DNA of 64,000 bases, taken from assembly GCF_008477545.1 (NCBI RefSeq), contig NZ_VORA01000005.1, positions 124,001 to 188,000 on the forward strand, in the 5' to 3' direction. How positions within the stretch are numbered: the stretch's first letter is position 1; every line of letters starts with the position of its first letter. The DNA comes from Roseibium aestuarii (GTDB lineage Bacteria; Pseudomonadota; Alphaproteobacteria; Rhizobiales; Stappiaceae). Positions 8,401-25,136 of this stretch are shown here, one piece after another. Below the pieces are notes generated by a model, which was given only the letters and a program-made list of their open reading frames with translations, was not told the origin of the DNA and did not search any database. The position numbers were made by a program, and so were the translations under genes.

Positions 8401-10112
8401 CTCACAACTACATCGTCAACGGCAGCTTCGAGCAGTTCCAGTCCTCCGGTCAGGAAAGCGGTTATGGCAACAGCCGCTGGTACGGCAGTGCCATCGTCAA
8501 TGGCTGGAGCACGGAAGCGGACATTCATTCGAGCGGCTGGGACAACAATCTCGGCACCACGGACGGGGATTATCGCCTCGATCTGGCCAATGCCTCGAAC
8601 AATGGCTACGCCTATCAGGACGTGCAGGGTCTCGCCGATGGCGAAACCTATCGCCTGAGCTTCGACCTGCGTCATCGCGGCGAGGTTGGGGATGCGGTCG
8701 TCCGGGTGTTTTGGGGCGGTGTGCTGGTGGCGGAAATCGCGCCGCTGGCCACCAGTTCCGACTGGCAGAGCTATGCCTTCGAGGTGACCGGCGGGGCAGG
8801 CGACGGCACCGACCGGCTGCGCTTCGAGGAAGTGGGCACCGACAACTACAAGGGCACGCAGATCGACAGCGTGTCGCTCGTGGACGTGAGCGACATCACG
8901 GTGGCCGAAAACCGGGAAGGCGAGGGGCTCGTCGCCCTTTCGGTCGTCGATCCGGATGCGGGCGACACGCACACGTTCACGCTCTCTGACAGTCGCTTCG
9001 AGGTGGTTGTCAGCGATGGCGCCTATCTGCTGAAGCTCAAGGACGGCATCGCGCTTGACTATGAAAGCGAACCGTCGGTGACCGTGACGGTGACGGCAAC
9101 CGACAGCGGCGGCCTTTCCGACACGGAAGTGATCGAGATCCGCGTCATCGATCTCGATGACGGATCGCCGATCATGGGTACGGAAGAGTTCATCCATGTG
9201 GGTGATACGACGGCGCTGAACCTGGCCGATGATCTGACCCTGTTCGAAGGCGTGGATGTTTCCGTCGGGCAGATCCTGAACGGGGACATCACCCTGACGT
9301 CGCTGCTCGATGTGAACGACGGTCTGGCGACGCTTGACGCGGCCGCCCAGCTTCTCGCTGACACGGGGGATCTGACCTACAACGCCCTGACTGGCGTGTC
9401 GGGGGCGCTGAGCTTCGATTTTGACCGGGACATTTCGAGCGTGTCCTTCGAGGTGTCCGATCTCTACTCCGGGCTACTGGGCATCGGCACCGAGCGCGGC
9501 TCCTGGGAGATCTATGATGACGGGGTTCTGGTCGGCAGCGGCAGCTTCTCCGGCACCGGATCTGGCATGGACACGATCAACATCGACACCGGCGTTCTGT
9601 TCGACCAGGTGGTGCTGACGGCGGATGCCTCGACCCTCGGACTTGGATCGACCTACACTTTCGAGCAGATCCTCTACACGGATGTGGATCTGACGGTGGG
9701 GGGCAATGACACCCTGCACGGCTCGACGGGAGACGACCAGATCTATGGCCTGAGCGGTCAGGACACGATCTATGGCCATGCGGGCGACGATCTGATCGTC
9801 GGCGGCACCCGCGACGACACGCTTTATGGTGGCGACGGGTCGGACACCTTCCTCTACCAGATGGGGGATGGCGACGACACGATCCACGGCGGCGCCGGTG
9901 CAAGCTGGATCGACATGATCGACCTGAATGACGGAGCGCAGGCGCTCGGCACCTACGGGTCCGACTGGAGCGTGACGGTGACCGACGGCTCCATCACCGG
10001 CGTCGACATGGTCAATGGCGAGATCTCGCTGAGCGATGACGCCGCCGGCTACATCGATCTGGCCGATGGTTCGCGCATCGATTTCACGGAGATCGAGAGC
10101 ATCCAGTTCTAG
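2427..10112 (+). CDS. Giant cadherin-repeat RTX adhesin secreted by type I system
   Basis: 2561 residues, starting at TTG 2427 with AGGAGA 6 nt upstream. There is no signal peptide, as expected for a type I substrate. Layout: a Gly/Ala/Asp-rich acidic leader (1-190); about 13 cadherin-like beta-sandwich repeats (about 195-1510), of which residues 399-1214 are eight near-identical 102-residue copies; a jellyroll-like module opening with NGSFE (about 1530-1690); three more cadherin-like repeats; a second NGSFE module (about 1998-2150) and another repeat; a unique domain (about 2250-2420); RTX nonapeptides such as GGNDTLHGS and GGDGSDTFL (about 2424-2480); and a C-terminus ending IESIQF that serves as the secretion signal. 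It is probably calcium-stiffened and surface-bound or released, used in attachment or biofilm. The strongly acidic composition fits this. The exact ligand is unknown. Confidence 0.9.
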   Translation: MSNTDTDPAAATSTTTNTTVSASSTEPSSQTGGPVVSDDVARTGAQSADPYRATETNDYSVSLTEGDSSEATVSNLFQQVPLDDEGGEVIQAEEAGSEAQAAPAGDATLDGSADVSGGGTGDGQAPLELNGGIEATAADAGDATAGVGLNAAPEGDGLPQFDLGGDGASAEGGEAGPGAGGGGVPDGDPAVNSVIGDVVDVDDTANAFSEDAPAGTVVGLTALAVDPDGDTVIYTIDDPRFAIDPTTGLVTIAEGAEFDAETEGSVSVIVTATSSDGSSSSQTFVFTVGDADEADVGPVSDTDASANSFAEDAAAGSATGLTAFADDPDISDSVTYAIDDPRFDIDPTTGVVTVAEGAVFDAETEGSITVVVTATSTDGSQSTETFVFTVTDVDEFDVGPVTDVDGTENTVAENSAGGTAVGITAFAEDADATDTVTYSITDTRFDIDPTTGVVTVADGAVLDAETTSSIDLVVTATSTDGSTSQATFTITISDENEFAIGPVTDVDGTENTVAENSAGGTVVGITAFAEDADATDTVTYSITDTRFVIDPTTGVVTVADGAVLDAETTSSIDLVVTATSTDGSTSQATFTITISDENEFAIGPVSDVDGTENTVAENSAGGTVVGITAFAEDADATDTVTYSITDTRFVIDPTTGVVTVADGAVLDAETTSSIDLVVTATSTDGSTSQATFTITISDENEFAIGPVTDVDGTANAVAENSAGGTVVGITAFATDADATDTVTYSITDTRFVIDPNTGVVTVADGAVLDAETTSSIDLVVTATSTDGSTSQATFTITISDENEFAIGPVSDVDGTENTVAENSAGGTVVGITAFAEDADATDTVTYSITDTRFDIDPNTGVVTVADGAVLDAETTSSIDLVVTATSTDGSTSQATFTITISDENEFAIGPVSDVDGSENTVAENSAGGTVVGITAFAEDADATDTVTYSITDTRFVIDPTTGVVTVADGTVLDAETTSSIDLVVTATSTDGSTSQATFTITISDENEFAIGPVTDVDGTENTVAENSAGGTAVGITAFAEDADATDTVTYSITDTRFDIDPTTGVVTVADGAVLDAETTSSIDLVVTATSTDGSTSQATFTITISDENEFAIGPVSDVDGTENTVAENSAGGTVVGITAFAEDADATDTVTYSITDTRFDIDPNTGVVTVADGAVLDAETTSSIDLVVTATSTDGSTSQATFTITISDENEFAIGPVSDVDGTANRISASATGGTNTGLTALASDQDVSDTVSYSIDDARFVIDPTTGVVTVADGAVFDANVEPTVTVTVTATSTDGSSSTQSFDIEISEPVGPVSDVDASANTVAENSAGGTVVGLTAFANDPNPGDTVTYSITDARFVIDPNTGVVTVADGAEIDFEATPTIDLEVTATSTDGSSSSAIFTINVSDVNEDISTVVDTDTGVNAVAENGTGGEYVGITAFASDPDAVDTVTYSITDARFVIDPTTGVVTVADGVSFDHEATPTVDLEVTATSSDGSTATETFTVTITDVNEAPDLVVNAEMSGQEFLVNGSFEVFAGMLDGTPGQGWYENPDSIEGWDSYTNVDVHQSGHYNFGATDGSHHLDLSARQNGTISQTIEGQLDGHVYELSMDLKSRGAIGESVAEIYWNGELLATIDPAVTGVDWQTFTFNVVGGAGDGTNTLTFVEIGTNNLAGTLIDSVSIQSGSTISVAEEYAGAEIVALSVVDPDDGDSHSFTVSDDRFEVVATGSGYMLKLKDDQAFDYETEQSVTVIVTVTDSGGLSDAETIQIEVRDVNEWAIGPLTDVDASANVVAENSAGGTVVGITAFAEDQDGTDTVTYSITDTRFVIDANTGVITVADGAVLDAEATSSIDIEVTATSSDGSSVTETFTVNITDVNEFAIGPLSDVDASANLIAEGSAGGTVVGITAFAQDPDASDTVTYSITDTRFVIDANTGEITLADGVDLDFETTPSIDLLVTATSSDGSTSSRSFTINVGDVNEAPDLVVGDPVGSHNYIVNGSFEQFQSSGQESGYGNSRWYGSAIVNGWSTEADIHSSGWDNNLGTTDGDYRLDLANASNNGYAYQDVQGLADGETYRLSFDLRHRGEVGDAVVRVFWGGVLVAEIAPLATSSDWQSYAFEVTGGAGDGTDRLRFEEVGTDNYKGTQIDSVSLVDVSDITVAENREGEGLVALSVVDPDAGDTHTFTLSDSRFEVVVSDGAYLLKLKDGIALDYESEPSVTVTVTATDSGGLSDTEVIEIRVIDLDDGSPIMGTEEFIHVGDTTALNLADDLTLFEGVDVSVGQILNGDITLTSLLDVNDGLATLDAAAQLLADTGDLTYNALTGVSGALSFDFDRDISSVSFEVSDLYSGLLGIGTERGSWEIYDDGVLVGSGSFSGTGSGMDTINIDTGVLFDQVVLTADASTLGLGSTYTFEQILYTDVDLTVGGNDTLHGSTGDDQIYGLSGQDTIYGHAGDDLIVGGTRDDTLYGGDGSDTFLYQMGDGDDTIHGGAGASWIDMIDLNDGAQALGTYGSDWSVTVTDGSITGVDMVNGEISLSDDAAGYIDLADGSRIDFTEIESIQF
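3621..6068 (+). repeat. Eight tandem 306-bp coding repeats in the adhesin
   Basis: Unit starts at 3621, 3927, 4233, 4539, 4845, 5151, 5457 and 5763 are exactly 306 bp apart, each encoding 102 residues from GP[VL][ST]DVDG to ENEFAI. Copies differ mostly at synonymous sites and a handful of residues (for example RFD/RFV and PTT/PNT). This indicates recent amplification by unequal crossing over or slippage. Outer repeats (3018, 3315, 6069, 6360, 6666) are clearly older and diverged. Copy number is prone to strain variation and to mis-assembly. Confidence 0.95.
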
Positions 10113-10932: not shown

Positions 10933-12435
10933 CTACTGGCTGCCGGTCGTGGTCTCGGGTGCGAGGGAGCTGCGCAGGGCGGGCATGGAGAGGGTGTCGA
11001 GGAAACTCGCGGTCTGCTGCTGGGAGGCGGCCATGTCGGTCTCCGACGGTGCAAGGCGCAGGTCCCAGTTCGCCAGCTGGGGCACGAGGCGGCGCTGCTC
11101 GGGCGGGCGGTCCTCGGTGATGCCGAAGTGGGACGGATCGAGCCGGCCCATGGAGGCCAGAAGGAAGAACCGCGCGACCTCAAGGTCGTAGCGGGTGCGC
11201 ACCTGGGCGACCTTGGAATTGATCAGCTCCCGCTGCCCGTTGAGCACATCGAGCAGAGAGCGCTGGCCGCCGTCATATTCCACCTTGAGCCCGTTGACTG
11301 CCGAGGCATTGGAGGCGATCGCCCGCTTGGCCGCCTCTGCCCGGGAGCTGGCCGTGCGCTCCTGCTTGTAGGCGCGAATGATGCTCTCGCGGATGGTCAG
11401 GCGGATGTCCTCCAGCGCGTATTCCTGCTGGGAGGCGGTGTAGCTGGTGGCGCGGACGGCGGACACGTTGCGGCCGCCGGCGAAGAGGGGGGCGGTCACC
11501 CGCAGGCCGAAGCGGAAGTCCTCCTCGTCGCGCTCGGCCAGATTGCCCCGGAAGCCGTTGCTCCAGGTGCTTTCCAGCTGCACGTTGGGCAGCATGTCGC
11601 CCACGGCAGCGCGGGCGGCATAGCGGGCGGCGCGGGCATCGGAAATGGCGGCGCGAATCGCCGGGTTCTGGGCCAGCGCCACCTCGATGGCGTTGTCGAG
11701 GGTCGCGGGCGAGATGTGGGGCGGAATGGCCGGCCAGCCGAGCTTGCCCGGTTCCTTGCCGGTGAGGCGCTCGTAGAGGGCCAGCGAGCCCTCCAGTTCG
11801 CCCATGGCCAGATCCCGGTTGCCCTGGGCTTCCGCCAGACGGGCGCTGGCCTGTTCGACGTCGGTGCGGGTGGCGTCGCCGGACTTGTAGCGGGCCTGGG
11901 CGGCCGTGACTTCCTGCTGGACGATGCCGACATAGTCGCGCTGGAGGGACAGGATGGTGCGGTCACGCATGACCTGGAGATAGGCATCGGCGGTGTTGAA
12001 GAGCAGGGTCTGCTCGGCATTGAGCAGCTGGTTGCGGCCGGAATTGGATTCCTCATGGGCCTGATTGAGCCGGTGCACGGCCGAGAAGCCCTGGAACAGG
12101 GGCTGGGTGGCGGTGATCCCGACACTGTAGAAGGCGGAGCGGTCACTGGTTCCGTTGCGCAGGCTGTCGAAGGCATTGTGTTCGGCGGTGAAGCTGCCGT
12201 TCACCGTGGGCAGGAAGCGAGACCGGGCGGTGGCAACCCCCTGGGTGGTGGCCTGATAGCGCGATTGCTCTGCCTTCAGTCCGGGATTTGCGGCATAGGC
12301 CCAGCCCATGGCCTCCTGCAGGCTTTCGGCGGCCGCAGGTGACGAGGCCACGGCCGTGCCGAGTGCAAGGGCGGTCGCGAAGGGCAGGCCAAGGCGGACC
12401 ATCCCGGTTACCGAATGTGCAAAGGGTCTGGGCAT
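10933..12435 (-). CDS. tolC: TolC-family outer membrane channel of type I secretion
   Basis: 500 residues. The ATG at 12435 has GGAG 7 nt upstream and is preferred to a TTG two codons earlier. A Sec signal peptide with AAAES-type cleavage (residues about 1-38) precedes a duplicated outer-membrane-efflux fold. Each half has the usual helical hairpin: LQEAMGWAYAANPGL ... LLFNTADAYLQVMRDR in the first, AIEVALAQNPAIR ... LLDVLNGQRELINSK in the second. The length matches TolC. It forms the trimeric outer membrane tunnel that the inner-membrane exporter engages through an HlyD-type adaptor. It is transcribed convergently with the adhesin gene, and its locus strongly suggests it serves adhesin export, although TolC proteins often serve several pumps. 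Confidence 0.88.
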   Translation of the reverse strand: MPRPFAHSVTGMVRLGLPFATALALGTAVASSPAAAESLQEAMGWAYAANPGLKAEQSRYQATTQGVATARSRFLPTVNGSFTAEHNAFDSLRNGTSDRSAFYSVGITATQPLFQGFSAVHRLNQAHEESNSGRNQLLNAEQTLLFNTADAYLQVMRDRTILSLQRDYVGIVQQEVTAAQARYKSGDATRTDVEQASARLAEAQGNRDLAMGELEGSLALYERLTGKEPGKLGWPAIPPHISPATLDNAIEVALAQNPAIRAAISDARAARYAARAAVGDMLPNVQLESTWSNGFRGNLAERDEEDFRFGLRVTAPLFAGGRNVSAVRATSYTASQQEYALEDIRLTIRESIIRAYKQERTASSRAEAAKRAIASNASAVNGLKVEYDGGQRSLLDVLNGQRELINSKVAQVRTRYDLEVARFFLLASMGRLDPSHFGITEDRPPEQRRLVPQLANWDLRLAPSETDMAASQQQTASFLDTLSMPALRSSLAPETTTGSQ

Positions 12436-12834
12436 CGACAAACTCCGAAAACAGTCGAGCCTATGCTTTGATATTATAGTTAAGGAAGCGTATTCATGCG
12501 ACCCTTCTTGAGATTAACGCTGCGTCTTTTTGCAAGTTCGTCATGTATTGTAAATTGTATCTATAAGTAAGATTCGGGATCTAACGTTTGTCGAGGGCAT
12601 CTGCGGGGCCAGTGGTCGGCCACTTTTGGGCTGCCGAATTCTTCTCGAAAGTTCATGGAGTTACTGCGCGTGCAGCGCATCCGATTTCTGGCAGGTCCTG
12701 CTGACCTCTGCGGAAAAACGGAGATAGATAAAATGCGAATGAAAAATTTAAGACTAGGTAACCATTTTCCGGTCACAACCCTTTCTTAAGGTTGGCCTTG
12801 GCAAATTTACCATTATGACCGAGGCGGCCTTTGC
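12436..12834. promoter_or_regulatory. AT-rich divergent intergenic region between tolC and gntR
   Basis: About 400 bp without a credible gene, noticeably AT-rich near both ends, serving as promoter DNA for the divergent tolC-like and GntR genes. Two inverted repeats stand out: AGTGG-N4-CCACT around 12610, and TGCGC-GTGCA-GCGCA at 12665-12679. The latter resembles the GCGC-centred inverted repeat in the adhesin/exporter promoter. No confident -35/-10 pair could be assigned. Confidence 0.4.
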
Positions 12835-13551
12835 ATGTCCGTAGCCACCCGAAGTTCAGGGATCTCGTGTTCTATGCCGGTGTCGCCCAAGCCCACACGC
12901 GTGAACAATGCGTATGAACGTCTGAAGCAGGACATCCTGAACAGCGAGCTGCCTCCGGGGTTCCAGGCGCCGGAGCCGGAGATCGCGGAGCGGCTGGGCA
13001 TGAGTCGCACGCCGGTGCGCGAGGCGCTGATCCGGCTGGAGGCCGACGGGCTGGTGGATCTGGTGCCGCGCCGTGGGGCCCGGGTCAAGGGCATGAGCCG
13101 GCAGGACATGCAGGACATCTACGATATTCTCTGTGTGCTGGAACCTCTCGCCCTGCGCAGGCTTTGCTTCGAGGACCAGCAACTGGATGAGGGTCTGCTG
13201 GCCCCGCTGCGCGACACGGTGGCGGCGATGCACCAGGCGGAGCTGGACGAGGATATCGATGCCTGGGCCGATGCCGAGCTCGACTTCCGTCGTCTGATCG
13301 TGGGGCTTGGCACCAACCGGCGCCTTTCCATCCTGCTCGAAGCACTGTTCGATCAGCTGCACCGTGGGCGTCTCGTCCTCCTGCGGCTGATGGGCAAGCC
13401 ACCCTTGATGGCGGAGGTCTGCAGGGACATTCTGTCGGCCGTGGAGGCGCGGGATGCCGAGCTTGCAGAAACGCTGATGCGCCGCTGCCGGGAAGAGGCG
13501 CGGGACCGGATGGACGAAGTCTTCTTCGTCAGCCGGCTGCCGCACGTCTGA
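12835..13551 (+). CDS. GntR-family (FadR/FCD) transcriptional regulator
   Basis: 238 residues. The N-terminal winged helix (about 20-85) shows the GntR pattern YERLKQDIL ... [23 protein letters not shown]. The C-terminal all-helical FCD domain (about 95-230) normally binds a metal and a small carboxylic acid. A later ATG (12874) would remove 13 residues, and neither start has a strong ribosome site. It lies 85 bp upstream of fumC on the same strand and ahead of the aromatic-acid genes, so it probably senses an organic acid of that pathway. The target and ligand are not shown by sequence. Confidence 0.85.
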
Positions 13552-13636
13552 CCCTGACGATCCGTTCCTTCGGCGGGTCGGGCGCGGGTGCGCGGCAGAC
13601 CCCATGGCAGACCCAGGGACAAGGAAGGATCGAGAG

Positions 13637-15037
<1,401 letters not shown>

Positions 15038-15336
15038 AATCGGATAAGGCGTCGGTCACAAGAGTGGCTGTAACCCTGCGTTTGCGGCACTCTGACGCAT
15101 ATAGGATTTTCTTGGTCTGATAGCAGAAGTTATGACCTGGGGGGCGGCATTGATTTGTGGCCGCCCGGGCCCTCCTCTAGGTTCGGGTCAAAACAAGATC
15201 AGGTGAGGAAACCGGACGCGGAGGCGATTGCCTTGCGCCTGCGCCCACAGTCCATGGCCCCGGCCGGACCGTGAGCGGCTGGCTGCGTCCACTTGCGACT
15301 TCTCCCTGAGCTGACCGGCCAATGCGGAGGATCGAG
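15038..15336 (+). promoter_or_regulatory. Leader/promoter region of the gal-like operon
   Basis: About 300 non-coding bases after fumC. The first half is relatively AT-rich (CATATAGGATTTTC around 15100) and likely carries the promoter. A hairpin GGGCGGC-N11-GCCGCCC lies at 15142-15166 without a T tract. The segment probably contains the site for the LysR regulator encoded at the operon end; I could not fix a T-N11-A box with confidence. Confidence 0.35.
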
Positions 15337-16293
15337 ATGTCCGGAGAACCCTGTTACGATGTCGCCCATCTGGCGCACGTCGAGTTGCTCACCAACAAGT
15401 TCGAGGAAAGCCTCGACTTCTTCGTCAACGTCTATGGTCTGACCGAAAGCGGTCGCGACGAGACCTCCGCCTATCTGCGCGGCTTCGACGATTATGAATT
15501 CCACTCGCTGAAGCTGACCCGCTCCGAGACCACGGGCGTCGGGCACATCGGCTATCGCTGCACCTCGGAGGCTGCCCTGGATCGCCGGGTGAAGGCCATC
15601 GAGGAGCTGGGCTGCGGCATCGGCTGGGTCGAGGGCGACATGGGTCACGGACGGGCCTATCGCTTCACCGATCCGGACGGGCACATCTTCGAGGTCTATT
15701 ACGAGACCCGCAAGTATGTGGCGCCGGAGGGCGAAAAGGCCGCGCTGAAGAACATCGCGCAGCGCTATCACGGCCGGGGTGCCGCCGTGCGCCGCATCGA
15801 CCACCTGAACCTGCTGGCCAGCGACGTGTCGAAGATCCGCGAATGGATGCCCAAGGCGCTGGGCTCCCGGGTCACCGAATACATCCAGCTCGACAATGGC
15901 CGCCTGGGTGGCTGCTGGTTCACGGTCAACAACAAGACCTATGACATCGCCTACACGGAAGACCATACGGGCACCAAGGGCCGGTTCCACCATGTGACCT
16001 ATGCGGTGGACCAGCGCGAAGACGTGCTGCGGGCGGCCGACATCTTCCTTGAGAACGGCGTCTTCATCGAGACCGGGCCGCACAAGCACGCGGTGCAGGG
16101 CACCTTCTTCCTCTACGTCTGGGAGCCGGCCGGCAACCGCGTCGAGGTCGCCAATGCCGGCGCCCGCCTGATCCTGCAGCCGGACTGGGAGCCGGTGTGC
16201 TGGACCCAGACCGACCGCATGAAGGGTCAGGCCTGGGGTCTCAAGACCATCGAGAGCTTCCACACGCACGGCACGCCGCCGGTAGATCACTAA
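15337..16293 (+). CDS. VOC-family (type I) extradiol ring-cleavage dioxygenase
   Basis: 318 residues, two vicinal-oxygen-chelate domains (about 8-125 and 150-285), the size of catechol 2,3-dioxygenase. Predicted Fe(II) ligands His156 (RIDHLNL), His218 or 219 (FHHVTYAV) and Glu270 (NRVEV) match the XylE spacing 153/214/265. The segment HAVQGTFFLY-VW-EPAGNRVE follows the extradiol signature closely. Start 15337 has GGAGG 6 nt upstream. It is the first gene of a run with galB, galC, galD and ligI homologues, so its product should feed 4-oxalomesaconate or pyrone chemistry. Known enzymes at that step (LigAB, GalA/DesB) belong to the unrelated type II LigB family. The substrate, perhaps gallate or another trihydroxylated acid, is inferred. 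Confidence 0.82.
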   Translation: MSGEPCYDVAHLAHVELLTNKFEESLDFFVNVYGLTESGRDETSAYLRGFDDYEFHSLKLTRSETTGVGHIGYRCTSEAALDRRVKAIEELGCGIGWVEGDMGHGRAYRFTDPDGHIFEVYYETRKYVAPEGEKAALKNIAQRYHGRGAAVRRIDHLNLLASDVSKIREWMPKALGSRVTEYIQLDNGRLGGCWFTVNNKTYDIAYTEDHTGTKGRFHHVTYAVDQREDVLRAADIFLENGVFIETGPHKHAVQGTFFLYVWEPAGNRVEVANAGARLILQPDWEPVCWTQTDRMKGQAWGLKTIESFHTHGTPPVDH

Positions 16294-16312
16294 GGTTTGG
16301 AGACACGAAGAG

Positions 16313-17044
16313 ATGTCCAGGAAGACCGCACTCATCGTCAGCGCCCATTCCGCTGACTTCGTCTGGCGCTGTGGTGGCGCCATCGCCCTGCACGAGGAAC
16401 GGGGCTATGACGTCACCGTCGTCTGCCTGTCCTATGGCGAGCGTGGCGAGAGCGCCAAGCTCTGGAAGAAGGAGGGCATGACCCTTGAGACGGTGAAGAC
16501 CGAGCGCCGCAAGGAAGCCGAGGCTGCTGCCCAGGCTCTCGGCGTCAAGGACATCCGCTTCTTCGACCTCGGCGACTATCCGCTCGACATGACCCGCGAA
16601 GCCAAGGACCGGCTGGTCGACGTCATGCGCGAAGTGCAGCCGTCCTTCATGATGTCGCACTCCCAGTGGGACCCCTACAACACCGACCACATGTATGTGT
16701 CGCAGTGGACCCTGGAATGCCGGGCCATCGCCCAGGCCTGGGGCCACAATCCGGGGCAGAAGATCCTCGGCGCGCCGCAGGTCTATCTGTTCGAGCCGCA
16801 TCAGTCCGAGCAGATGAACTGGAAGCCGGACACGTTCCTCGACATCACCTCCGTCTGGGAGAAGAAGTGGGCGGCCATCCAGTGCATGCAGGGGCAGGAG
16901 CACCTCTGGCACTACTATCGCAACGTGGCCGAGAATCGCGGAAACCACTTCCAGCGCAATTCCGGCGGCCAGTCCGGCGGGCGCGCCTGCAAATATGCGG
17001 AAGGCTTCCAGTCGGTCTATCCGCGCACCGTTGACGAACTTTAA
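16313..17044 (+). CDS. galB: 4-oxalomesaconate hydratase, PIG-L type (GalB)
   Basis: 243 residues of the PIG-L/LmbE metal-dependent fold. The usual AHPDDE metal motif is AHSADF, and the segments CLSYGERGESAKLW, PYNTDH, EPHQSEQ and QCMQGQEHLW match what I recall of Pseudomonas GalB. GalB hydrates 4-oxalomesaconate to 4-carboxy-4-hydroxy-2-oxoadipate instead of deacetylating sugars. The gene follows the dioxygenase by 19 bp and precedes the aldolase by 15 bp. General PIG-L deacetylases lack this neighbourhood, so the specific call rests on sequence and context together. Confidence 0.83.
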   Translation: MSRKTALIVSAHSADFVWRCGGAIALHEERGYDVTVVCLSYGERGESAKLWKKEGMTLETVKTERRKEAEAAAQALGVKDIRFFDLGDYPLDMTREAKDRLVDVMREVQPSFMMSHSQWDPYNTDHMYVSQWTLECRAIAQAWGHNPGQKILGAPQVYLFEPHQSEQMNWKPDTFLDITSVWEKKWAAIQCMQGQEHLWHYYRNVAENRGNHFQRNSGGQSGGRACKYAEGFQSVYPRTVDEL

Positions 17045-17059
17045 GAGGAGAGACCTGCC

Positions 17060-17734
17060 ATGGGCGGCGTCGTCGTGCAGAACATCGAACGGGCTGATCC
17101 GGCCGTGATCAAGGCGCTGGGGGAGGCCGGTGTGGCCACCGTCCATGAAGCGCAGGGGCGCAAGGGGCTTCTGGCCTCCTACATGCGCCCGATCATTCCG
17201 GGTGCCCAGCTGGCGGCCTCTGCCGTGACGATCTCCGCGCCTCCGGGCGACAACTGGATGGTGCATGTGGCCATCGAGCAGGTGCAGGCCGGGGACATTC
17301 TGGTGCTTGCCCCGACCAGCCCCTGCGAGGACGGCTATTTCGGCGATCTGCTGGCCACGTCCATGCAGGCGCGCGGGGGCATGGGGCTGATCATCGATGC
17401 GGGCGTGCGCGACGTGCGCGACCTGCGGGCGATGAACTTCCCCGTCTGGTCCAAGGCAGTCTTCGCCCAGGGCACGGTGAAGGAGACCATCGGCTCGGTG
17501 AACGTGCCCGTGGTCTGCGCCGGGGCCTATGTCCGTCCGGGCGATATTCTGGTCGCCGATGACGACGGGGTCTGCGTGGTGTTGCGCGAAGAGGCCGAGG
17601 ACGTGCTGAAGAAGGCGCAGGCCCGCATGGCCGCGGAAGAGGAAAAGCGCCAGCGTCTGGCCGCCGGCGAGCTGGGTCTCGATCTCTACGGCATGCGCGA
17701 GCGGCTGGCCGAGAAGGGGCTGAAATATGTCTGA
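17060..17734 (+). CDS. galC: 4-carboxy-4-hydroxy-2-oxoadipate aldolase (GalC/LigK type)
   Basis: 224 residues, RraA-like fold. This class of metal-dependent aldolase cleaves 4-carboxy-4-hydroxy-2-oxoadipate to pyruvate and oxaloacetate and often also decarboxylates oxaloacetate. The characteristic active-site run is [10 protein letters not shown] (about residues 113-122) with the upstream [12 protein letters not shown] helix; the Arg-Asp pair positions substrate and divalent metal. A good ribosome site (AGAGGAGA) precedes the ATG. The last 8 bases overlap galD, indicating coupled translation. RraA-like RNase E inhibitors share the fold but not the longer C-terminal helix seen here (about 185-224). 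Confidence 0.86.
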
Positions 17735-18809
17735 GGCGCTGCGTTCCGGTCCGGATCATGACACCGGCATCCGCTGCATGTGGATGCGCGGCGGCACCTC
17801 CAAGGGCGGGTATTTCCTGGCCGAGGATCTGCCCGAGGATCCGGCGGAGCGCGACGCCCTTCTGCTCAAGGTCATGGGGTCCCCCGATCCGCGCCAGATC
17901 GATGGCATGGGTGGGGCGGATCCCCTGACCTCCAAGGTTGCGGTGGTCAAGGCGTCCACCCGGCCCGGCGTCGATGTGGACTATCTGTTCCTGCAGGTCT
18001 TCGTCGATCAGGCGGTGGTCGCCGACAGCCAGAACTGCGGCAACATCCTTGCCGCCGTCGGTCCCTTTGCCCTGGAGCGCGGTCTCGTTGCCGCTCGCGA
18101 CGGGGTGACCGACGTGCGCATCTTCATGGAAAACACCGGCCAGCTGGCCACCGCCAGCGTGGCGACGCCCGGCGGCCGGGTGACCTATGCGGGGGATGCG
18201 CGGATCGACGGGGTGCCGGGCAGTTCCGCGCCGATCTCCATCGTCTTCGAGGATACGGCAGGCTCGACCTGCGGCGCCCTGCTGCCCACTGGCAATGCGG
18301 TCGACGTGATTGACGGCGTGCCGGTCACGCTCATCGACAACGGCATGCCCTGCGTCATCCTGAATGCGGCCGACTTCGGCATCACGGGGCGGGAGGCCCC
18401 GAAGGAGCTGGAGGCCAACGGCGAGCTGCGCCGCCGGGTCGAGGCGATCCGCCTCAAGGCCGGCCCGCTGATGAATCTCGGCGATGTGAGCGAGAAGTCC
18501 GTGCCGAAGATGACGCTCGTCAGCGCGCCCGAGGCCGGTTGCATTTCCACGCGCACCTTCATTCCCCATCGCTGCCATGCCGCCATCGGCGTGCTGGGGG
18601 CCGTCAGCGTGGCCACCGCCTGCCTGCTGGAGGACGGTCCGGCGCAGGCTCTGGCGCGGGTGCCCGACGGCGAGAGCAAGACGCTTTCGGTCGAACATCC
18701 GACGGGGGAATTCTCCGTTCTGGCCCGCCTCGACGACACGGGAACGCTGGTGTCCGCAGGGGTTCTGAGGACCGCGCGCAAACTCTTCGACGGGACGGTG
18801 TTCGTCTAG
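17727..18809 (+). CDS. galD: 4-oxalomesaconate tautomerase (GalD, PrpF family)
   Basis: 360 residues of the PrpF branch of the diaminopimelate-epimerase-like fold, two similar lobes. Recognisable segments are [14 protein letters not shown] near the N-terminus, the active-site Cys-containing [18 protein letters not shown], and [19 protein letters not shown] in the second lobe. GalD interconverts keto and enol forms of 4-oxalomesaconate, the immediate product of gallate ring opening. Plain PrpF (2-methylaconitate isomerase) is the alternative, but the galB/galC/ligI neighbours and absence of methylcitrate genes favour GalD. Translation is coupled to galC by an 8-nt overlap. Confidence 0.84.
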
Positions 18810-18855
18810 CCAGGCACCGTTCTCATCTGATCCGGCTAACATGGGAGGAGTACCA

Positions 18856-19776
18856 ATGATCAGAAAGCTCATCGCAACCGGGGCGCTCGCGCTTGCCGTC
18901 AGCGCTCCGGCGCAGGCCGAAACCCGCGTGTCCATCGGCACCGGCGGCACGGGGGGCGTGTTCTACGCCATCGGCGCCGGCATGGCCGACATCCTGAACA
19001 AGAAGCTCGATGGCGTCACCGCCAATGCGGAAGTCACCGGCGCTTCGGTCGAGAATGTGCTGCGGGTCTCCGCAGGCGAAATGACCATCGGTTTCTCCAG
19101 CGCCTCCACGCTCTATGAGGGCAAGCAGGGCGAAGGAACGTTCGATGCCGCGCAGAACGTGGCCGCCATCGCCTATCTCTATCCGGCCTATCTGCAGATC
19201 GCGGCGACGACCGCAAGCGGCGTCACCTCCATCGAGGATCTGGCCGACAAGAAGATTTCCGTCGGGCCTCCGGGCTCCAACTCGGCCGTCTTTGCGGAGC
19301 GGGTTCTGGAGGCATCCGGCGCTCTGACGCCTTCGAACCTCTCGTATCTGTCCTATAACGAGGCAACGGATTCCATCAAGAACGGCAATCTGGACGGCTC
19401 CATCATTCTCGCCGGCGTTCCGGCGTCCGCGTTCATCGAGCTCACCACCACCATGGACATGACGCTGGTGCCGGTGAATGGCGACAAGATGGGTGCCCTG
19501 ATCGATAAGTATCCGTTCTACGAACTCGTCGAGATCCGCGGCGGTGTCTACAAGGGGGCGGATGCTCCGGTGGCTGCGGTCGGTGACCCGGCGATCCTGT
19601 TTGCCGCAGCCGATGCGGATCCGGATCTGATCTATCAGATCACCAAGACGCTCTTCGACAATCTCGGCGATGTGGCGGCCGTTCACCCGGCGGCCAAGGC
19701 GATCTCGCTGGAAAAGGCGACCAAGACGCCGATCCCGCTGCACGAGGGCGCGCAGCGCTACTTCGACGGCAAGTGA
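18856..19776 (+). CDS. TAXI-family TRAP transporter solute-binding protein
   Basis: 306 residues. A Sec signal peptide (about 1-22, ending AQA) is followed by the TAXI hallmark GTGGTGGVFYAIGAGMADIL and a bilobal periplasmic binding fold. Start 18856 has GGGAGGAG upstream; an earlier in-frame ATG at 18841 overlaps that ribosome site. It captures substrate for the fused permease encoded next. Lying inside the gal-like operon, the ligand is inferred to be the aromatic acid or a tricarboxylate-like ring-fission product. A GC-rich hairpin after the gene probably raises its mRNA level over the permease. Confidence 0.86.
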   Translation: MIRKLIATGALALAVSAPAQAETRVSIGTGGTGGVFYAIGAGMADILNKKLDGVTANAEVTGASVENVLRVSAGEMTIGFSSASTLYEGKQGEGTFDAAQNVAAIAYLYPAYLQIAATTASGVTSIEDLADKKISVGPPGSNSAVFAERVLEASGALTPSNLSYLSYNEATDSIKNGNLDGSIILAGVPASAFIELTTTMDMTLVPVNGDKMGALIDKYPFYELVEIRGGVYKGADAPVAAVGDPAILFAAADADPDLIYQITKTLFDNLGDVAAVHPAAKAISLEKATKTPIPLHEGAQRYFDGK

Positions 19777-19789
19777 CCTGAAGCCTGAC

Positions 19790-19807
19790 GGGGCGCTACG
19801 GCGCCCC
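19790..19807 (+). other. Hairpin between TRAP binding protein and permease genes
   Basis: GGGGCGC-TACG-GCGCCCC, 14 nt after the binding-protein stop and without a T run. It is more likely a 3'-end stabiliser or attenuator allowing excess binding protein than a full terminator, since the permease follows on the same strand. Confidence 0.55.
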
Positions 19808-19906
19808 TGTCATCGCTCCGTGCCCCGTTCGACCGGCTTCGGCCGCGACCGGGCGACGGCTTTCCGGGCGGGGCCGGCCCCGCCGCCACTTCTGGGATCC
19901 CTGTCC

Positions 19907-21835
19907 GTGGCCGAACTCTGGAAATTTCTCCCTGAAGGCTCGCTCTCGCGGGTCGAGCATCGTCTGCTCTGCATCATCGTCGCGGCCCTCGCACTGGCGG
20001 CGACGGCGCTGGTCATCCACGCGGCCTGGTTCGGCAGCCTGACGGCGCTGCTCATGCGCTCACTGTTCTTCTCGCTGCTGACCTCGACCGGTCTCTTCAT
20101 CGTGGCCGCACAGAGGCGGCTGCAGATCAGTCGCCTGCTTCTCTATGTGCTGGCGCTGCTGATCCTGATCCCGGGGCCGTATCTCTACCTCAACTACATG
20201 TCCATCATCCGCAGCGGCGGAATCGCCGGACAGTGGGACATCTATCTCTTCGCGCTGAGCGCCGTGGCGGCGCTGGTGCTGGCCCGGTTCACCATCGGCT
20301 GGGTGATGGTGGGTCTTGGCGTGGCGGCTCTTGCCTATGCCTTCTTCGGGGACCTGATCCCCGGGGTCTATGGCCATGGGGGCTACAAGATCGGCCGGGT
20401 GGCCTCCAATCTCTTCCTGAAGACGGAAGGGCTCTTCGGCCTGCCGATGGGGGTGGCCGCGCAATATATCCTGCTGTTCTCGCTGCTCGGCACCTTGCTG
20501 CTGCGCACGGGCCTTGGTCAGGTCTTCGTCGATCTGGCCCATGCGCTGACGGGCCGGATCCAGGGCGGACCGGCGCTGACCGCCGTGGTCTCTTCCACCA
20601 TGTTCTCCTCGATCAACGGATCGGCGGTCGCGGGCGTCGTGACCACGGGCACCTTCACGATCCCGCTGATGAAGCGCACCGGATATCGCCCCAAGGTGGC
20701 GGCTGCCATCGAGGCCGCAGCGTCGTCCGCCGGTCAGATCATGCCGCCCGTGATGGGGGCCGCCGCGTTCCTGATGGCGGAGATCACCCAGACCCCCTAT
20801 GCGACCATCGCGGCGGCGGCGCTGATACCGGCGCTGCTCTATGTCTTCGCGCTGCTTCTCGCCGTGCGGCTGGAGGCGGGCAAGTTCAACATGAGCCGCT
20901 CGGATGGCTCCGACGTGCCGTCCCTGCGGGCGGTGCTCGCCGGTCGCGGCTACATGCTTCTGCCGCTGGTCGCGCTGATCGGGTTCCTGGCCTATGGCTA
21001 CACGCCGGCGAAATCGGCCGTGCTGTGCCTGATCTCTGCGCTTGTCATCTCGTCCTTCTCGAAGGAGACCCGACTGACCCCGGTGGCCCTGCTCGATGTG
21101 ATGGTGGAAACCGTGCGCAACGTGCTGCCGGTGGTGGCGGCGGTTGCGATTGCCGGCATGCTGATCGGGGTGCTGACCCTGACCGGTATGGCGCTGAAGG
21201 TCTCGGCCATGATCCTCGACTTCGGGGGCAGCAGCCTGTTCCTGGTTCTGGCGCTGACCATGCTGGCGTCCTTTGTGCTCGGGCTGGGCATGCCGACGTC
21301 GGCCGCCTATCTGCTGCTCGCCATTCTGATTGCCCCGGCGCTGGAGAAATTCGGCCTGCCGCCCATCGCGGCGCACATGTTCATCTTCTACTACGGGCTG
21401 CTCTCGGCCATCACGCCGCCCGTGGCGCTGGCGGCTTATGCGGGGGCGTCGATTGCCGGCTCCGAGCCCAACGAGACGGCGGTGGAGGCCATGCGCCTCG
21501 GCTTCGTCAAGGTGGTGGCGCCGTTCTTCTTCGTCTATGCGCCGGGGCTCCTGCTCATCGGCTCGACCCTGGACATCATCCTGTCGACCATCGGCGCCGT
21601 CGGCGCGACCTTTGCCGCCGGAACGGCGATGGTCGGCTGGTTCATCAGGCCTCTGTCGAAGGTGTCGATCGGCAGCTTCTGGCTTGCGGCGGCGCTCTTC
21701 ACCTATTCCCTCATTCTCGATCAGGCCGATCCGGTCAGCTTCGCCGCGAAGGCGGCCGGGCTGATCCTCGTCGCCCTGCCCATCTGGACAAGCTGGAAGA
21801 CCCATGACCATCGATCCGCAAACCTGGCATCCTGA
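19907..21835 (+). CDS. TRAP transporter fused 4TM/12TM permease (TAXI type)
   Basis: About 642 residues with some 16-18 hydrophobic segments, the fused small and large TRAP subunits. The core contains conserved loops: SSTMFSSINGSAVAGVVTTGTFTIPLM, SSAGQIMPPVMGAAAFLMAE, LGMPTSAAYLLLAI and YYGLLSAITPPVALAAYAGA. It uses an ion gradient to import substrate delivered by the upstream TAXI protein. The frame is open upstream to 19670. I place the start at GTG 19907 (weak GGGAT 8 nt upstream), where the amphipathic N-terminus begins; GTG 19820 is possible. Its end overlaps the ligI-like gene by 32 nt. Confidence 0.87.
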   Translation: MAELWKFLPEGSLSRVEHRLLCIIVAALALAATALVIHAAWFGSLTALLMRSLFFSLLTSTGLFIVAAQRRLQISRLLLYVLALLILIPGPYLYLNYMSIIRSGGIAGQWDIYLFALSAVAALVLARFTIGWVMVGLGVAALAYAFFGDLIPGVYGHGGYKIGRVASNLFLKTEGLFGLPMGVAAQYILLFSLLGTLLLRTGLGQVFVDLAHALTGRIQGGPALTAVVSSTMFSSINGSAVAGVVTTGTFTIPLMKRTGYRPKVAAAIEAAASSAGQIMPPVMGAAAFLMAEITQTPYATIAAAALIPALLYVFALLLAVRLEAGKFNMSRSDGSDVPSLRAVLAGRGYMLLPLVALIGFLAYGYTPAKSAVLCLISALVISSFSKETRLTPVALLDVMVETVRNVLPVVAAVAIAGMLIGVLTLTGMALKVSAMILDFGGSSLFLVLALTMLASFVLGLGMPTSAAYLLLAILIAPALEKFGLPPIAAHMFIFYYGLLSAITPPVALAAYAGASIAGSEPNETAVEAMRLGFVKVVAPFFFVYAPGLLLIGSTLDIILSTIGAVGATFAAGTAMVGWFIRPLSKVSIGSFWLAAALFTYSLILDQADPVSFAAKAAGLILVALPIWTSWKTHDHRSANLAS

Positions 21836-22670
21836 CCCGTCGAAGCCGGCGTTCGTGGCCCCGGAAGGGGCGGTGGATGCCCATTGCCACGTGTTCGGCC
21901 CGGGGGACGTCTTTCCCTATGCGCCGGAGCGCAAGTACACGCCCACCGACGCGCCGAAGGAGATGCTCTTCGCCCTGCGAAAGCACCTCGGCTTCTCGCG
22001 CAATGTGATCGTTCAGGCGAGCTGTCACGGGCGAGACAACGCGGCGCTGCTCGATGCCCTGAGGGCGGATCCGGACAACAGCCGCGGCATTGCGGTGGTC
22101 GATCCGGCGATCAGCGACGAGGCGCTTTCGGACATGGACCGGCTGGGCGTGCGCGGCATTCGCTTCAACTTCGTGAAGCGTCTGGTCGATCCGGGCCCGA
22201 AGGACGCCTATCTGCGCATGGCGGAAAGGGTCGCGAAACTCGGCTGGCACGTGGTGGTCTATTTCGAGGCACCGGAGCTGGAAGAGCTGACACCCTTCCT
22301 CAAGAGTTTGCCGGTAACGGTGGTGGTCGACCATATGGGCCGCCCGGACGTTGCAGCCGGTGTGGAGAGCGAAGGCTTCCAGCGGTTCGTCCGCCTGATG
22401 GAGGACGAGACATTCTGGGTGAAGGTCGGTTGCCCCGAGCGTCTGACCGTGACAGGCGCGCCCTATAACGACGTGGCGCCCTTTGCCCGGCTTCTGGTGG
22501 AGCGGTTCCCGGACAGGGTTCTGTGGGGTACCGACTGGCCGCATCCGAACATGAAGAGCCATCTGCCGGACGACGGGCTGCTGGTCGACCGCATCCCCGT
22601 GATTGCCCCGACTGCCGAGCTGCAACGCAAGCTGCTGGTCGACAATCCAGTTCGGCTCTACTGGTCCTGA
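21804..22670 (+). CDS. ligI: 2-pyrone-4,6-dicarboxylate hydrolase-like amidohydrolase (LigI)
   Basis: 288 residues of the amidohydrolase TIM barrel (COG3618-like). The N-terminal DAHCHVFGP metal motif is present, with HMGRPD mid-barrel and WGTDWPHPN supplying the catalytic Asp near the C-terminus. LigI opens 2-pyrone-4,6-dicarboxylate to 4-oxalomesaconate/4-carboxy-2-hydroxymuconate without needing a bound metal. It would recover the pyrone that forms spontaneously from the ring-cleavage product and return it to the GalD/GalB branch. Other lactonases share the fold, so the specific substrate rests on operon context. It overlaps the TRAP permease end, implying one transcript. Confidence 0.82.
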   Translation: MTIDPQTWHPDPSKPAFVAPEGAVDAHCHVFGPGDVFPYAPERKYTPTDAPKEMLFALRKHLGFSRNVIVQASCHGRDNAALLDALRADPDNSRGIAVVDPAISDEALSDMDRLGVRGIRFNFVKRLVDPGPKDAYLRMAERVAKLGWHVVVYFEAPELEELTPFLKSLPVTVVVDHMGRPDVAAGVESEGFQRFVRLMEDETFWVKVGCPERLTVTGAPYNDVAPFARLLVERFPDRVLWGTDWPHPNMKSHLPDDGLLVDRIPVIAPTAELQRKLLVDNPVRLYWS

Positions 22671-22720
22671 AGACAGGCGAAGACGCACGGGCGTCCCGCG
22701 TCGGAAGCGAGGAAATGAGC

Positions 22721-24052
22721 ATGGGCACAGGCCGCTCAGGCAGTGGGCAGATCCCTTCGGGGGGCAGCGTGACGGATCCGGCGATGGGCGCAGCCGCGGC
22801 AACGGGTCCGGAAAGCGGGCCCCTCTACCCGAACCTGCGGCATCTGCGCCTGCTGGAGGCGGCGGAGCGGCTGGGGTCGCTGACGGCTGCGGCCGAGACG
22901 CTGCTGATCTCCCAGCCGGCGGCCAGCCAGGCGGTCAGCCGCCTCAACGGGCTGTTCGGCGGCAAGCTGCTCGAGCGGCGCGGCAACGGGGTCTATGCCA
23001 CCGAGCGCGGGCTGATCGTGGCCCGCCGGACCCGGCGTCTTCTCGATCTCATTCGCGGCTATTCCCACACGAACCTGCGCCGCTGGCGCGGGGCGGCGAT
23101 GGAGCGGGAGATCGCGCTGGAAAACCACCTGACCATTTCGCACATCCGCGCTGTGTCGGCGGTGGGTCGCATGGGGAGCTTCTCCGGCGCTGCCCGGTTC
23201 CTTGGGCAGACCGAGCCGAACGTGCAGCGGGCGGCGCGCGAGCTGGAGGGCATTGTCGACGCCAAGCTCTTCGTCGGCGGCGTCAAGGGCATGCACCTGA
23301 CCGAAGGCGGGCAGGATCTCGCCCGGATCGCCAATCTGGCGCTGAAGGAGCTGGACAGCACCTTCGACGAGGTGCGCGAGCATGAGGGCGCCTATGACGG
23401 GAAGGTCGTGGTGGGCACCCTGCCGCTGGTGCGCGCGCAGATCGTGCCGGAAGCCGCGGTCGCCCTGTCGCAACTCTATCCGGATGCGACCATCAGCATC
23501 CTGGACGGGACGTTCGAGGACCTGATCCAGGCGCTGGAGAGCGGGGCCATCGACATGTTGCTCGGGGCCCTGCGGCCGGAGCTTGCCACGGCGAGCCTGG
23601 TGCAGGAAGCGCTGTTTCAGGACCAGCTGGCCGTGGTGGCGCGGGCCAGCCACCCTCTGCTGCAGCGGAACCAGATTTCCCTCACCGACCTGCAGGAGTT
23701 TCCCTGGGTTCTGCCGCGCCCGGAAACGCCGACCCGCCGGCTCTTCGACAGTCTGGTGCAATCGGGCGCCCTGCCGCGCGAGACGCGGGGCTGCATCGAG
23801 ACCGGGTCGCTTGTGGCCCTGCGCGGCATTCTGATCGAGACCGACTATCTGACCATCGTCTCGCCGCGCCAGATCCAGCTCGAACTCAAGGCCGGGCTGC
23901 TGAAGGTGCTGCCGGTGCCGCTAACGGGCTCTGCCCGGCCGATCGGTCTGACGACACGGGCCAACTGGCAGCCGACCCGCCTGCAACGGGACTTCCTGCA
24001 AGGGCTGCGTGCCATTGTGGCGGCGCATGCTGGCGAGGACGGCGTCGCCTGA
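22721..24052 (+). CDS. LysR-family regulator with two tandem HTH domains
   Basis: 443 residues, about 140 longer than a normal LysR. The first winged helix (about 38-110: RHLRLLEAAERLGSLTAAAE ... SQPAASQAVSRL) is followed by a second, independent one (about 130-205: ISHIRAVSAVGRMGSFSGAAR ... TEPNVQRAARELE). Then comes the effector-binding domain (about 225-440, starting GKVVVGTLPLVRA). Start 22721 is supported by AGGA 7 nt upstream; ATG 22715 is too close. It is the last gene of the gal-like run, 50 bp after ligI, and by analogy to GalR/LigR probably activates that operon in response to its aromatic substrate. Confidence 0.87.
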   Translation: MGTGRSGSGQIPSGGSVTDPAMGAAAATGPESGPLYPNLRHLRLLEAAERLGSLTAAAETLLISQPAASQAVSRLNGLFGGKLLERRGNGVYATERGLIVARRTRRLLDLIRGYSHTNLRRWRGAAMEREIALENHLTISHIRAVSAVGRMGSFSGAARFLGQTEPNVQRAARELEGIVDAKLFVGGVKGMHLTEGGQDLARIANLALKELDSTFDEVREHEGAYDGKVVVGTLPLVRAQIVPEAAVALSQLYPDATISILDGTFEDLIQALESGAIDMLLGALRPELATASLVQEALFQDQLAVVARASHPLLQRNQISLTDLQEFPWVLPRPETPTRRLFDSLVQSGALPRETRGCIETGSLVALRGILIETDYLTIVSPRQIQLELKAGLLKVLPVPLTGSARPIGLTTRANWQPTRLQRDFLQGLRAIVAAHAGEDGVA

Positions 24053-24110
24053 CGGCAACGCCGGGGCGGGCGAGGATGGCGTTACCTGACGGCAACTGCC
24101 GGAGCGGGCG

Positions 24111-25136
24111 CTACGCCTTCGGCGCCGGGCCGGTGGAGTGGCCGATGATCAGCTCCGCCTTGAGATATTCGTGCACCGGCTTGTCCGGGTGCGGCATCAC
24201 CTGATCGATCAGAAGTTCGGCTGCCCGCTCGCCGGCATAGCGCACAGAGGAGCGCGTGCAGGTGAAGATCGGCTTGTCGCCGGTGTTGGGCAGGAAGGAC
24301 AGGGCGTCGTCATGGGTGATGACCGACACGTCCCGGCCCATCTTCAGCCCGCGCTCGGAAATGGCCCGGGACACGCCGATGGCGGTGATCATGCTTGAGA
24401 CGAGGAAGGCGGTGGGCGGCTCCGGAAGATCGAGCAGCGCGTGGGCGGAGCTTGCGCCATAGGGCTCGGTCATGTCGGCCTGGCGCATGAGCGCCGGATC
24501 CGCTGTCAGGTTTCTGTGGGCGTGGGCCCTCTCGAAACCGCGGCGCCGGCGCGCGGCGAAATCCATGTCCTCCAGACCGTTCAGCAGGGCGATCCGCCGA
24601 TGCCCGAGATCGAGCAGCAGGTCGGTGGCCGTCTCGAAGGCGCTGCCGTTGTTCATGTCGATCCAGGAGAGGTCGTTTTCGCGGCCGGGAATGCGGCCGT
24701 GGATCAGGAAGGGGATTTTCAGCTCCTGCAGGATCTCGTGGCGGTGGTCGTCGAGGCGGGGACCGTGGATCATCACCGCATCCGCCTTCTTGCGCACCGC
24801 GATCTCCCGATAGGCGGCACCGACCTGGGCGTCGGGCACGACGGTGAGGATCATGTCATAGCCGAAGCGGGCATAGGTCTGGCCGGCGCCGGCGATGAAT
24901 TCCATGAAGACCGGGTTCATCATCTCGTGCAGGGAGACGGGGATGACGTGGCCGATGGCCATGGAGCGGCCGGTGGCCAGCCTGCGCGCCTGACTGTTGG
25001 GCGCATAGCCCAGACGCCGGGCGGTCTCCTCCACGCGCTTGCGGGTCTCCTCGCTGACTTCCGGATAGCCGTTGAGCGCGCGGCTGACCGTGGTCTGGGA
25101 CAGGGACAGGGCTTCGGCCAGCTGCTTGAGGTTCAC
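24111..25136 (-). CDS. aglR: LacI-family regulator of the alpha-glucoside operon (AglR-like)
   Basis: 341 residues: N-terminal LacI HTH and hinge (NLKQLAEALSLSQTTVSRALNGYPEVSEE, RRLGYAPNSQARRLATGRS) and a periplasmic-binding-protein-like sugar domain. The GTG at 25136 is chosen because LacI proteins begin one or two residues before LKQLAE; the frame extends to a GTG at 25178 with no ribosome site. It is divergent from aglE, and three operator-like sequences lie between them, so it is expected to repress the transport genes until sugar binds. The identity as AglR is from gene order and family resemblance. Confidence 0.82.
   Translation of the reverse strand: MNLKQLAEALSLSQTTVSRALNGYPEVSEETRKRVEETARRLGYAPNSQARRLATGRSMAIGHVIPVSLHEMMNPVFMEFIAGAGQTYARFGYDMILTVVPDAQVGAAYREIAVRKKADAVMIHGPRLDDHRHEILQELKIPFLIHGRIPGRENDLSWIDMNNGSAFETATDLLLDLGHRRIALLNGLEDMDFAARRRRGFERAHAHRNLTADPALMRQADMTEPYGASSAHALLDLPEPPTAFLVSSMITAIGVSRAISERGLKMGRDVSVITHDDALSFLPNTGDKPIFTCTRSSVRYAGERAAELLIDQVMPHPDKPVHEYLKAELIIGHSTGPAPKA

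Follow-up and report, generated by a model that had tools for sequence, protein, structure and literature searches.

Gallate dioxygenase (EC 1.13.11.57) converts gallate and O2 to 4-oxalomesaconate, cleaving the ring between C4 and C5 without the help of a dehydrogenase. Gallate is a hub in the breakdown of tannins and syringyl lignin, and gallic acid is a common building block of plant tannins. In Pseudomonas putida KT2440 and Sphingobium SYK-6, GalA and DesB catalyze the ring opening in partnership with GalD, GalB, and GalC. GalA and DesB have the LigB fold of type II enzymes according to the accessible parts of two papers (PMC4250580, PMC3962378), the second of which classes DesB, LigAB, and DesZ as type II. 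The AromaDeg scheme, as far as the available text describes it, assigns gallate dioxygenases to the LigB superfamily and does not list them with the type I substrates (PMC4250580). No type I gallate dioxygenase is named in the titles and opening lines of abstracts of the open-licence literature searched, which leaves most subscription journals outside and does not establish absence from print. Here we analyze a 64,000-nucleotide stretch of Roseibium aestuarii DNA (contig NZ_VORA01000005.1, positions 124,001 to 188,000; "the window"), in which the same GalD, GalB, and GalC partners are encoded behind a gene for a type I enzyme of the VOC fold that does not match LigB. The operon is probably a gallate catabolic unit, with the VOC enzyme acting as a type I gallate dioxygenase that catalyzes the GalA/DesB reaction as a non-homologous replacement.

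A probable gallate operon led by a VOC-fold dioxygenase

The unit consists of a plus-strand run (15337-22670) followed by a LysR gene, and its genes contain no internal stops. The original prediction had recognized here galB, galC, galD, and a ligI-like gene led by a gene for a 318-residue VOC dioxygenase, which curated models and matches to PDB entries bear out. It had left unnamed the TAXI protein and the fused TRAP permease encoded between galD and the ligI-like gene, as well as the LysR gene. The order is VOC-galB-galC-galD-TAXI-TRAP permease-ligI-like-LysR, all on the plus strand:

15337..16293, +: VOC (type I) extradiol dioxygenase of two modules, 318 aa, proposed gallate dioxygenase; TIGR03211 316.4 bits (cut-off 320.2)
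16313..17044, +: GalB-like hydratase of the 4-oxalomesaconate branch, PIG-L family; PF02585; PDB 5cgz, E 2.6e-94
17060..17734, +: GalC/LigK CHA aldolase; TIGR02798 380.6 bits (cut-off 304.5); NF006731 over cut-off; PDB 3noj, E 6.3e-93
17727..18809, +: GalD/LigU 4-oxalomesaconate tautomerase; NF033377 538.2 bits (cut-off 440); PDB 6p3j, E 7.1e-161
18856..19776, +: TAXI-family TRAP solute-binding protein; TIGR02122 265.5 bits (cut-off 84.35)
~19832..21835, +: fused TRAP permease, start codon unsettled (the coordinate itself is no start codon); TIGR02123 539.9 bits (cut-off 320.65)
21804..22670, +: LigI-like 2-pyrone-4,6-dicarboxylate hydrolase; PF04909; PDB 4d8l, E 2.9e-109
~22718..24052, + (start approximate): LysR regulator with HTH_1 in two stretches plus LysR_substrate

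The genes are tightly spaced, with successive gaps from VOC to LysR of 19, 15, -8, 46, 55, -32, and 47 bp (the TRAP and LysR starts being approximate), so that the largest gap is 55 bp and two gene pairs overlap. GalD and GalC score over their curated cut-offs, and the best solved relative of GalB is a 4-oxalomesaconate hydratase (5cgz); with these identities the steps below 4-oxalomesaconate are all accounted for. The best solved relative of the hydrolase is LigI (4d8l). Among the best 80 related loci described below, the closest named locus with an identical operon order belongs to Roseibium limicola, whose VOC protein is 90% identical and whose genes are arranged as GntR-VOC-GalB-GalC-GalD-TAXI-TRAP-LigI-LysR, without fumC.

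Fold and active site of the VOC enzyme

The VOC protein is built as a type I extradiol dioxygenase, with PF00903 and Diox-like_N, two VOC modules, and a 2-His-1-Glu triad in the C-terminal module. Pfam gives VOC-type domains only, with no LigB domain, and the gene is single-copy in the genome. The AlphaFold2 (AF2) model has a pLDDT of 83.8, with residues 298-316 below 50. Foldseek aligns it with the type I structures 3lm4 and AphC, giving TMq values of 0.83-0.86 (0.85-0.86 for 3lm4) and 35-36% identity.

Phmmer alignments were made to 9wgj, 3lm4, and 1f1x. Mapped by hand from the last of these, the metal triad His156, His219, and Glu270 corresponds to His155, His214, and Glu267 of homoprotocatechuate 2,3-dioxygenase (HPCD, 1f1x), which settles in favor of His219 the choice between His218 and His219 that had been left open. 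Further hand-mapped equivalences are N158=N157, W194=W192, H251=H248, and Y260=Y257. The VOC enzyme therefore shares with HPCD and with the catechol 2,3-dioxygenases AphC (7q2a) and LapB (3hpv) the fold, the two VOC modules, the His-His-Glu triad, His251, and Tyr260. It differs from them in its gal operon setting, in its sub-cut-off model scores, and in Tyr202, which by sequence alignment stands where HPCD has His200, a second-sphere acid/base residue. The score of 316.4 bits falls narrowly under the 320.2 cut-off of the catechol 2,3-dioxygenase equivalog TIGR03211, and that for the HpaD/HPCD equivalog TIGR02295 is 210.1 bits (cut-off 321.4). The protein thus belongs to the type I extradiol enzymes but falls in neither of these two named groups, missing the first only narrowly.

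Tyr202 is invariant in 81 of 81 sequences (the window and 80 loci) and in all 106 clade rows (104 distinct sequences). The 12-position set H156-N158-Y202-H219-H251-Q254-Y260-E270-R294-K/R296-Q298-H309 is found in 106 of 107 rows (104 of 105 distinct). The lone exception, a Thermus thermophilus enzyme that is 42% identical and lies outside the clade, keeps His and sits beside simple catechol route genes. In a 33-sequence tree, all Tyr sequences form one group with a support of 0.87, including PDB 9wgj, which was deposited as a catechol 1,2-dioxygenase and is 53% identical over the aligned part. The Tyr202 clade has members in Alpha- and Gammaproteobacteria, in an actinomycete, and in Thermus oshimai, and it is often plasmid-borne. 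Its active-site set differs from that of the His202 relatives, none of whose 8 loci (9.5 to 19.5 kb each) has a GalB, GalC, GalD, LigM, or DesA match nearby.

Ring openers elsewhere in the genome

The genome searched is near-complete (4.35 Mb, 21 contigs). A whole-genome LigB-family search, which the original prediction had proposed, finds no LigB-type gallate or protocatechuate dioxygenase; its sole match fits only the 4,5-DOPA-extradiol-dioxygenase model, at 187.7 bits and under the cut-off of 233. The gallate-dioxygenase model NF009904 has no match in the genome. The earlier statement that both a LigB-type opener and a LigC-like dehydrogenase are missing thus stands genome-wide for the opener and within the run for the dehydrogenase; LigC outside the run was not searched for. 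The LigI/LigU/LigJ/LigK branch of SYK-6 has LigI-, LigU- (GalD), and LigK-like (GalC) counterparts in the window, which differs from that branch in the lack of a LigAB match in the genome, the lack of a dehydrogenase in the operon, and a hydratase of GalB type.

PcaGH (protocatechuate 3,4-dioxygenase) is encoded in the genome with both subunits over cut-off, so protocatechuate can have its own route. No LigM/DesA protein passes its cut-off in the genome, the only match (24.8 bits) being a sarcosine-oxidase-like protein, and the run holds no hydratase/aldolase set for simple catechols.

A second GalD homologue (C11:1668256-1669293, 474.1 bits, over the curated cut-off) was considered as the mark of a second gallate cluster and rejected. 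It has no galB, galC, or VOC match in 18.5 kb. Judged by eye, the surrounding genes (L084 8188-9771) seem to encode ThDP-type enzymes, a flavoprotein, and a tripartite tricarboxylate transporter, and on both counts the locus is treated as unrelated.

Neighborhoods of related VOC genes

Gene linkage was examined in the best 80 of 593 related loci, a set that leans to close relatives. GalB is present in 65 of these loci, GalC in 63, and GalD in 61. The corresponding numbers are 54, 52, and 53 among the 68 loci that are flanked by 5 kb or more in each direction, and at least two of galB, galC, and galD occur in 54 of these. LigM/DesA-type O-demethylases are found in 38 of the 68, and 62 carry either gal genes (at least two) or LigM/DesA. 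LigI occurs in only 5 of the 80 loci and a PobA-like gene in 1.

The LigM/DesA identities were checked with curated models on 11 proteins. Seven score best and over cut-off for LigM (L062, L034, L019, L022, L037, L033, and L016), and two score best for DesA, over its cut-off of 800 (L010 5293-6708 and L028). A second L010 protein has its higher score for DesA and passes the LigM cut-off only, and L021 passes neither. Locus L010 combines DesA and LigM-model matches over cut-off with VOC and galBCD, and has no LigB match.

On the pAt plasmid of the walnut Agrobacterium strain 186, the order is galB-VOC-galC-galD-tannase, with the tannase gene (PF07519, 437.9 bits) beginning 189 bp after galD; Agrobacterium vitis has a carboxylesterase gene in its place. 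Pantoea piersonii carries, in this order, LysR, a symporter annotated as aromatic acid/H+ (model score 400.8, just under the 418.55 cut-off), and VOC, with galBCD divergent. This layout resembles galTAP plus galBCD of KT2440 with VOC in the place of galA, a comparison drawn in part from PMC12314914. In the actinomycete, whose VOC protein is 56% identical, DUF1932, galB, galC, galD, and VOC lie together. Moreover, 9 of 13 Tyr202 regions from plasmid records carry at least two of galB, galC, and galD.

A separate arrangement is seen at L092, where a small, different VOC-like gene (11650-12285, recognized by eye) follows GalB-GalD-DUF1932 in a genome with no match to the Tyr202 VOC or to NF009904.

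Occurrence in 387 genomes

In a sample of 387 genomes drawn evenly from the class of the window, VOC at 64% identity or more is present in 6. Five of these 6 have GalD over cut-off, versus 48 of the 387 overall. Three of the five genomes with both VOC and GalD (the window genome, G091, and G032) have no NF009904 match, and G091 and G032 each hold a galB-VOC-galC-galD cluster. The presence of GalD was considered as a proxy for gallate use and rejected, in view of GalD-positive genomes with neither this VOC nor a strong LigB match.

Proposed route and role of the Tyr202 clade

The proposed assignment proceeds from what is read in the sequence (gene content, gene order, metal triad, Tyr202 signature, and linkages) to the probable substrate, product, and metal of the VOC enzyme, the role of Tyr202, and the transporter cargo. 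The VOC enzyme is taken as the ring opener for GalD, GalB, and GalC because no LigB-type opener is present, because related genes are linked to galBCD, LigM/DesA, a tannase, and a symporter, and because the active site is specific to the clade. The same linkages and active site strengthen the earlier suggestion that the enzyme may open gallate or a similar acid to 4-oxalomesaconate. As its substrate, gallate is favored over 3-O-methylgallate or protocatechuate, though not proven.

The TAXI-TRAP transporter would probably import gallate or a close relative. The VOC enzyme would bind two neighboring hydroxyls at a metal, Fe(II) or Mn(II), coordinated by His156, His219, and Glu270, and insert O2 adjacent to them. 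Since the cleaved carbon of gallate bears a hydroxyl as well, the product would be the acid 4-oxalomesaconate, and no dehydrogenase would be needed. GalD would then tautomerize 4-oxalomesaconate, GalB would hydrate it, and GalC would cleave the hydrated product to pyruvate and oxaloacetate. The likeliest role of the LigI-like protein is the salvage of 2-pyrone-4,6-dicarboxylate (PDC), which would arise as a by-product, be imported, or come from 3-O-methylgallate.

With somewhat less assurance than for the window operon, we favor extending this assignment to the whole Tyr202 clade, whose members would then be type I enzymes opening gallate and similar compounds, having taken the place of GalA/DesB by non-homologous displacement; the change from His to Tyr would be an adaptation to cleaving the ring at a carbon with a hydroxyl already on it. 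If so, in many bacteria of soil, marine, and plant-associated habitats, genes that carry the label "VOC family protein" or "catechol 2,3-dioxygenase" would encode gallate openers, and bacteria without GalA/DesB would become recognizable as gallate users. In addition, the clade would offer a naturally occurring His-to-Tyr substitution in a well-known active site and hence a direct test of the role of this residue.

Weighing of the gallate assignment

A number of observations weigh against this assignment. Because the locus set leans to close relatives, its linkage counts are not independent. In 6 of the 68 loci the VOC neighborhood lacks both gal genes and LigM/DesA, L028 has DesA and no gal genes in the DNA examined, and 4 of the 13 plasmid regions carry fewer than two gal genes; Pantoea At-9b and Chimaeribacter, among these four, have none within 9 kb. 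In the survey, a GalD search at E 1e-80 gives no match for G305, although this genome has the Tyr signature. PDB 9wgj, with Asn instead of Gln at 254, shows that the full 12-residue set does not hold throughout the clade, and this protein may already have a characterized function; no publication was found under its code. A tannase search of the window genome gave no match, and its control matched nowhere either.

LigB-type genes lie beside VOC in 9 of the 80 loci and likewise in Roseomonas, and G100 and G158, which have both VOC and GalD, contain LigB-type genes of 275 and 314 bits. The LigB enzyme in such loci could act on protocatechuate or 3-O-methylgallate, in the manner of MgaAB of Pseudomonas NGC7 (PMC12314914), with VOC serving gallate. 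Of the 48 GalD-positive genomes, 20 lack both this VOC and any LigB match above 125 bits (14 have no LigB match at all and 6 only matches under 125 bits), which leaves room for further ring openers or for other functions of GalD.

Among the alternatives, the one that survives best would have the VOC enzyme open 3-O-methylgallate to PDC and methanol (or to the methyl ester CHMOD), with the LigI-like protein supplying 4-oxalomesaconate to GalD, GalB, and GalC. This alternative agrees with an operon that has a LigI-like gene and no dehydrogenase, with LigM/DesA in 38 of the 68 loci (the DesA model being over cut-off in two), and with the ring opening of 3-O-methylgallate to PDC or CHMOD known in syringate degraders, as given in the accessible portion of PMC12314914. 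We nevertheless consider it unlikely, as LigI is rare among the related loci (5 of 80) and the best LigM/DesA score in the window genome, 24.8 bits, is below cut-off. In loci that do have LigM, this enzyme could pass 3-O-methylgallate on to gallate, and the tannase-linked cluster points to gallate rather than to its methyl ether.

It is quite improbable that the VOC enzyme acts as a protocatechuate 4,5-dioxygenase of type I, with a dehydrogenase (for example, DUF1932) and LigI taking the semialdehyde to 4-oxalomesaconate. No dehydrogenase is found in the window operon, PcaGH is present in the genome, LigI and PobA-like genes occur in only 5 and 1 of the 80 loci, and the tannase linkage again points to gallate. 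This alternative draws on two findings that count against the gallate route. A DUF1932 dehydrogenase (6-phosphogluconate-dehydrogenase-like), which has no place in a plain gallate route, is linked in 55 of the 80 loci (e.g., L034 13446-14321). The Thermus oshimai plasmid pTHEOS01 (L122, 5351-13364) encodes a 60% identical VOC together with PobA, an aldehyde dehydrogenase, DUF6282, GalB, and GalC. This association with PobA hints that protocatechuate may be the substrate of this member at least, and the cluster is possibly a type I protocatechuate 4,5-cleavage cluster. LigM, moreover, also acts on vanillate to give protocatechuate.

Least probable is that the VOC protein is an ordinary catechol 2,3-dioxygenase present in the operon by chance, with another enzyme opening gallate: TIGR03211 is its best NCBIfam model, each of the 40 sequences in alignment A1 reaches E 1e-30 or better against that model, and LigB-type enzymes co-occur in 9 of the 80 loci, but the galBCD linkage recurs in Alpha- and Gammaproteobacteria and the actinomycete and in 0 of 8 His202 relatives, the active-site set is unlike that of these relatives, the genome has no LigB-type alternative, and the run has no simple-catechol hydratase/aldolase set.

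Regulator and surroundings of the operon

The LysR gene (~22718-24052) is the probable regulator of the operon. LysR regulators with two HTH_1 domains also adjoin VOC-gal clusters in other Alpha- and Gammaproteobacteria (L115 1131-2417, L120 5968-7170, and L128 6098-7327). A scan of 13500-24200 gave no sigma-70-like promoter sites, and a comparison of the 300 bp ahead of the VOC gene with the corresponding stretch in L002 reveals no clear similarity. The end of FumC lies 299 bp upstream of the VOC gene. The original prediction had suggested that fumarase C could help to drain the four-carbon products, which is not supported: none of the 80 related loci has a fumC match in the DNA examined, and fumC does not belong to the conserved unit. 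Further upstream in the window, a 2561-residue, highly repetitive protein is encoded at 2427-10112 (+), and a TolC-like protein adjoins it at 10933-12441 (-). Judged by eye from the translation, the pair resembles type I secreted adhesins.

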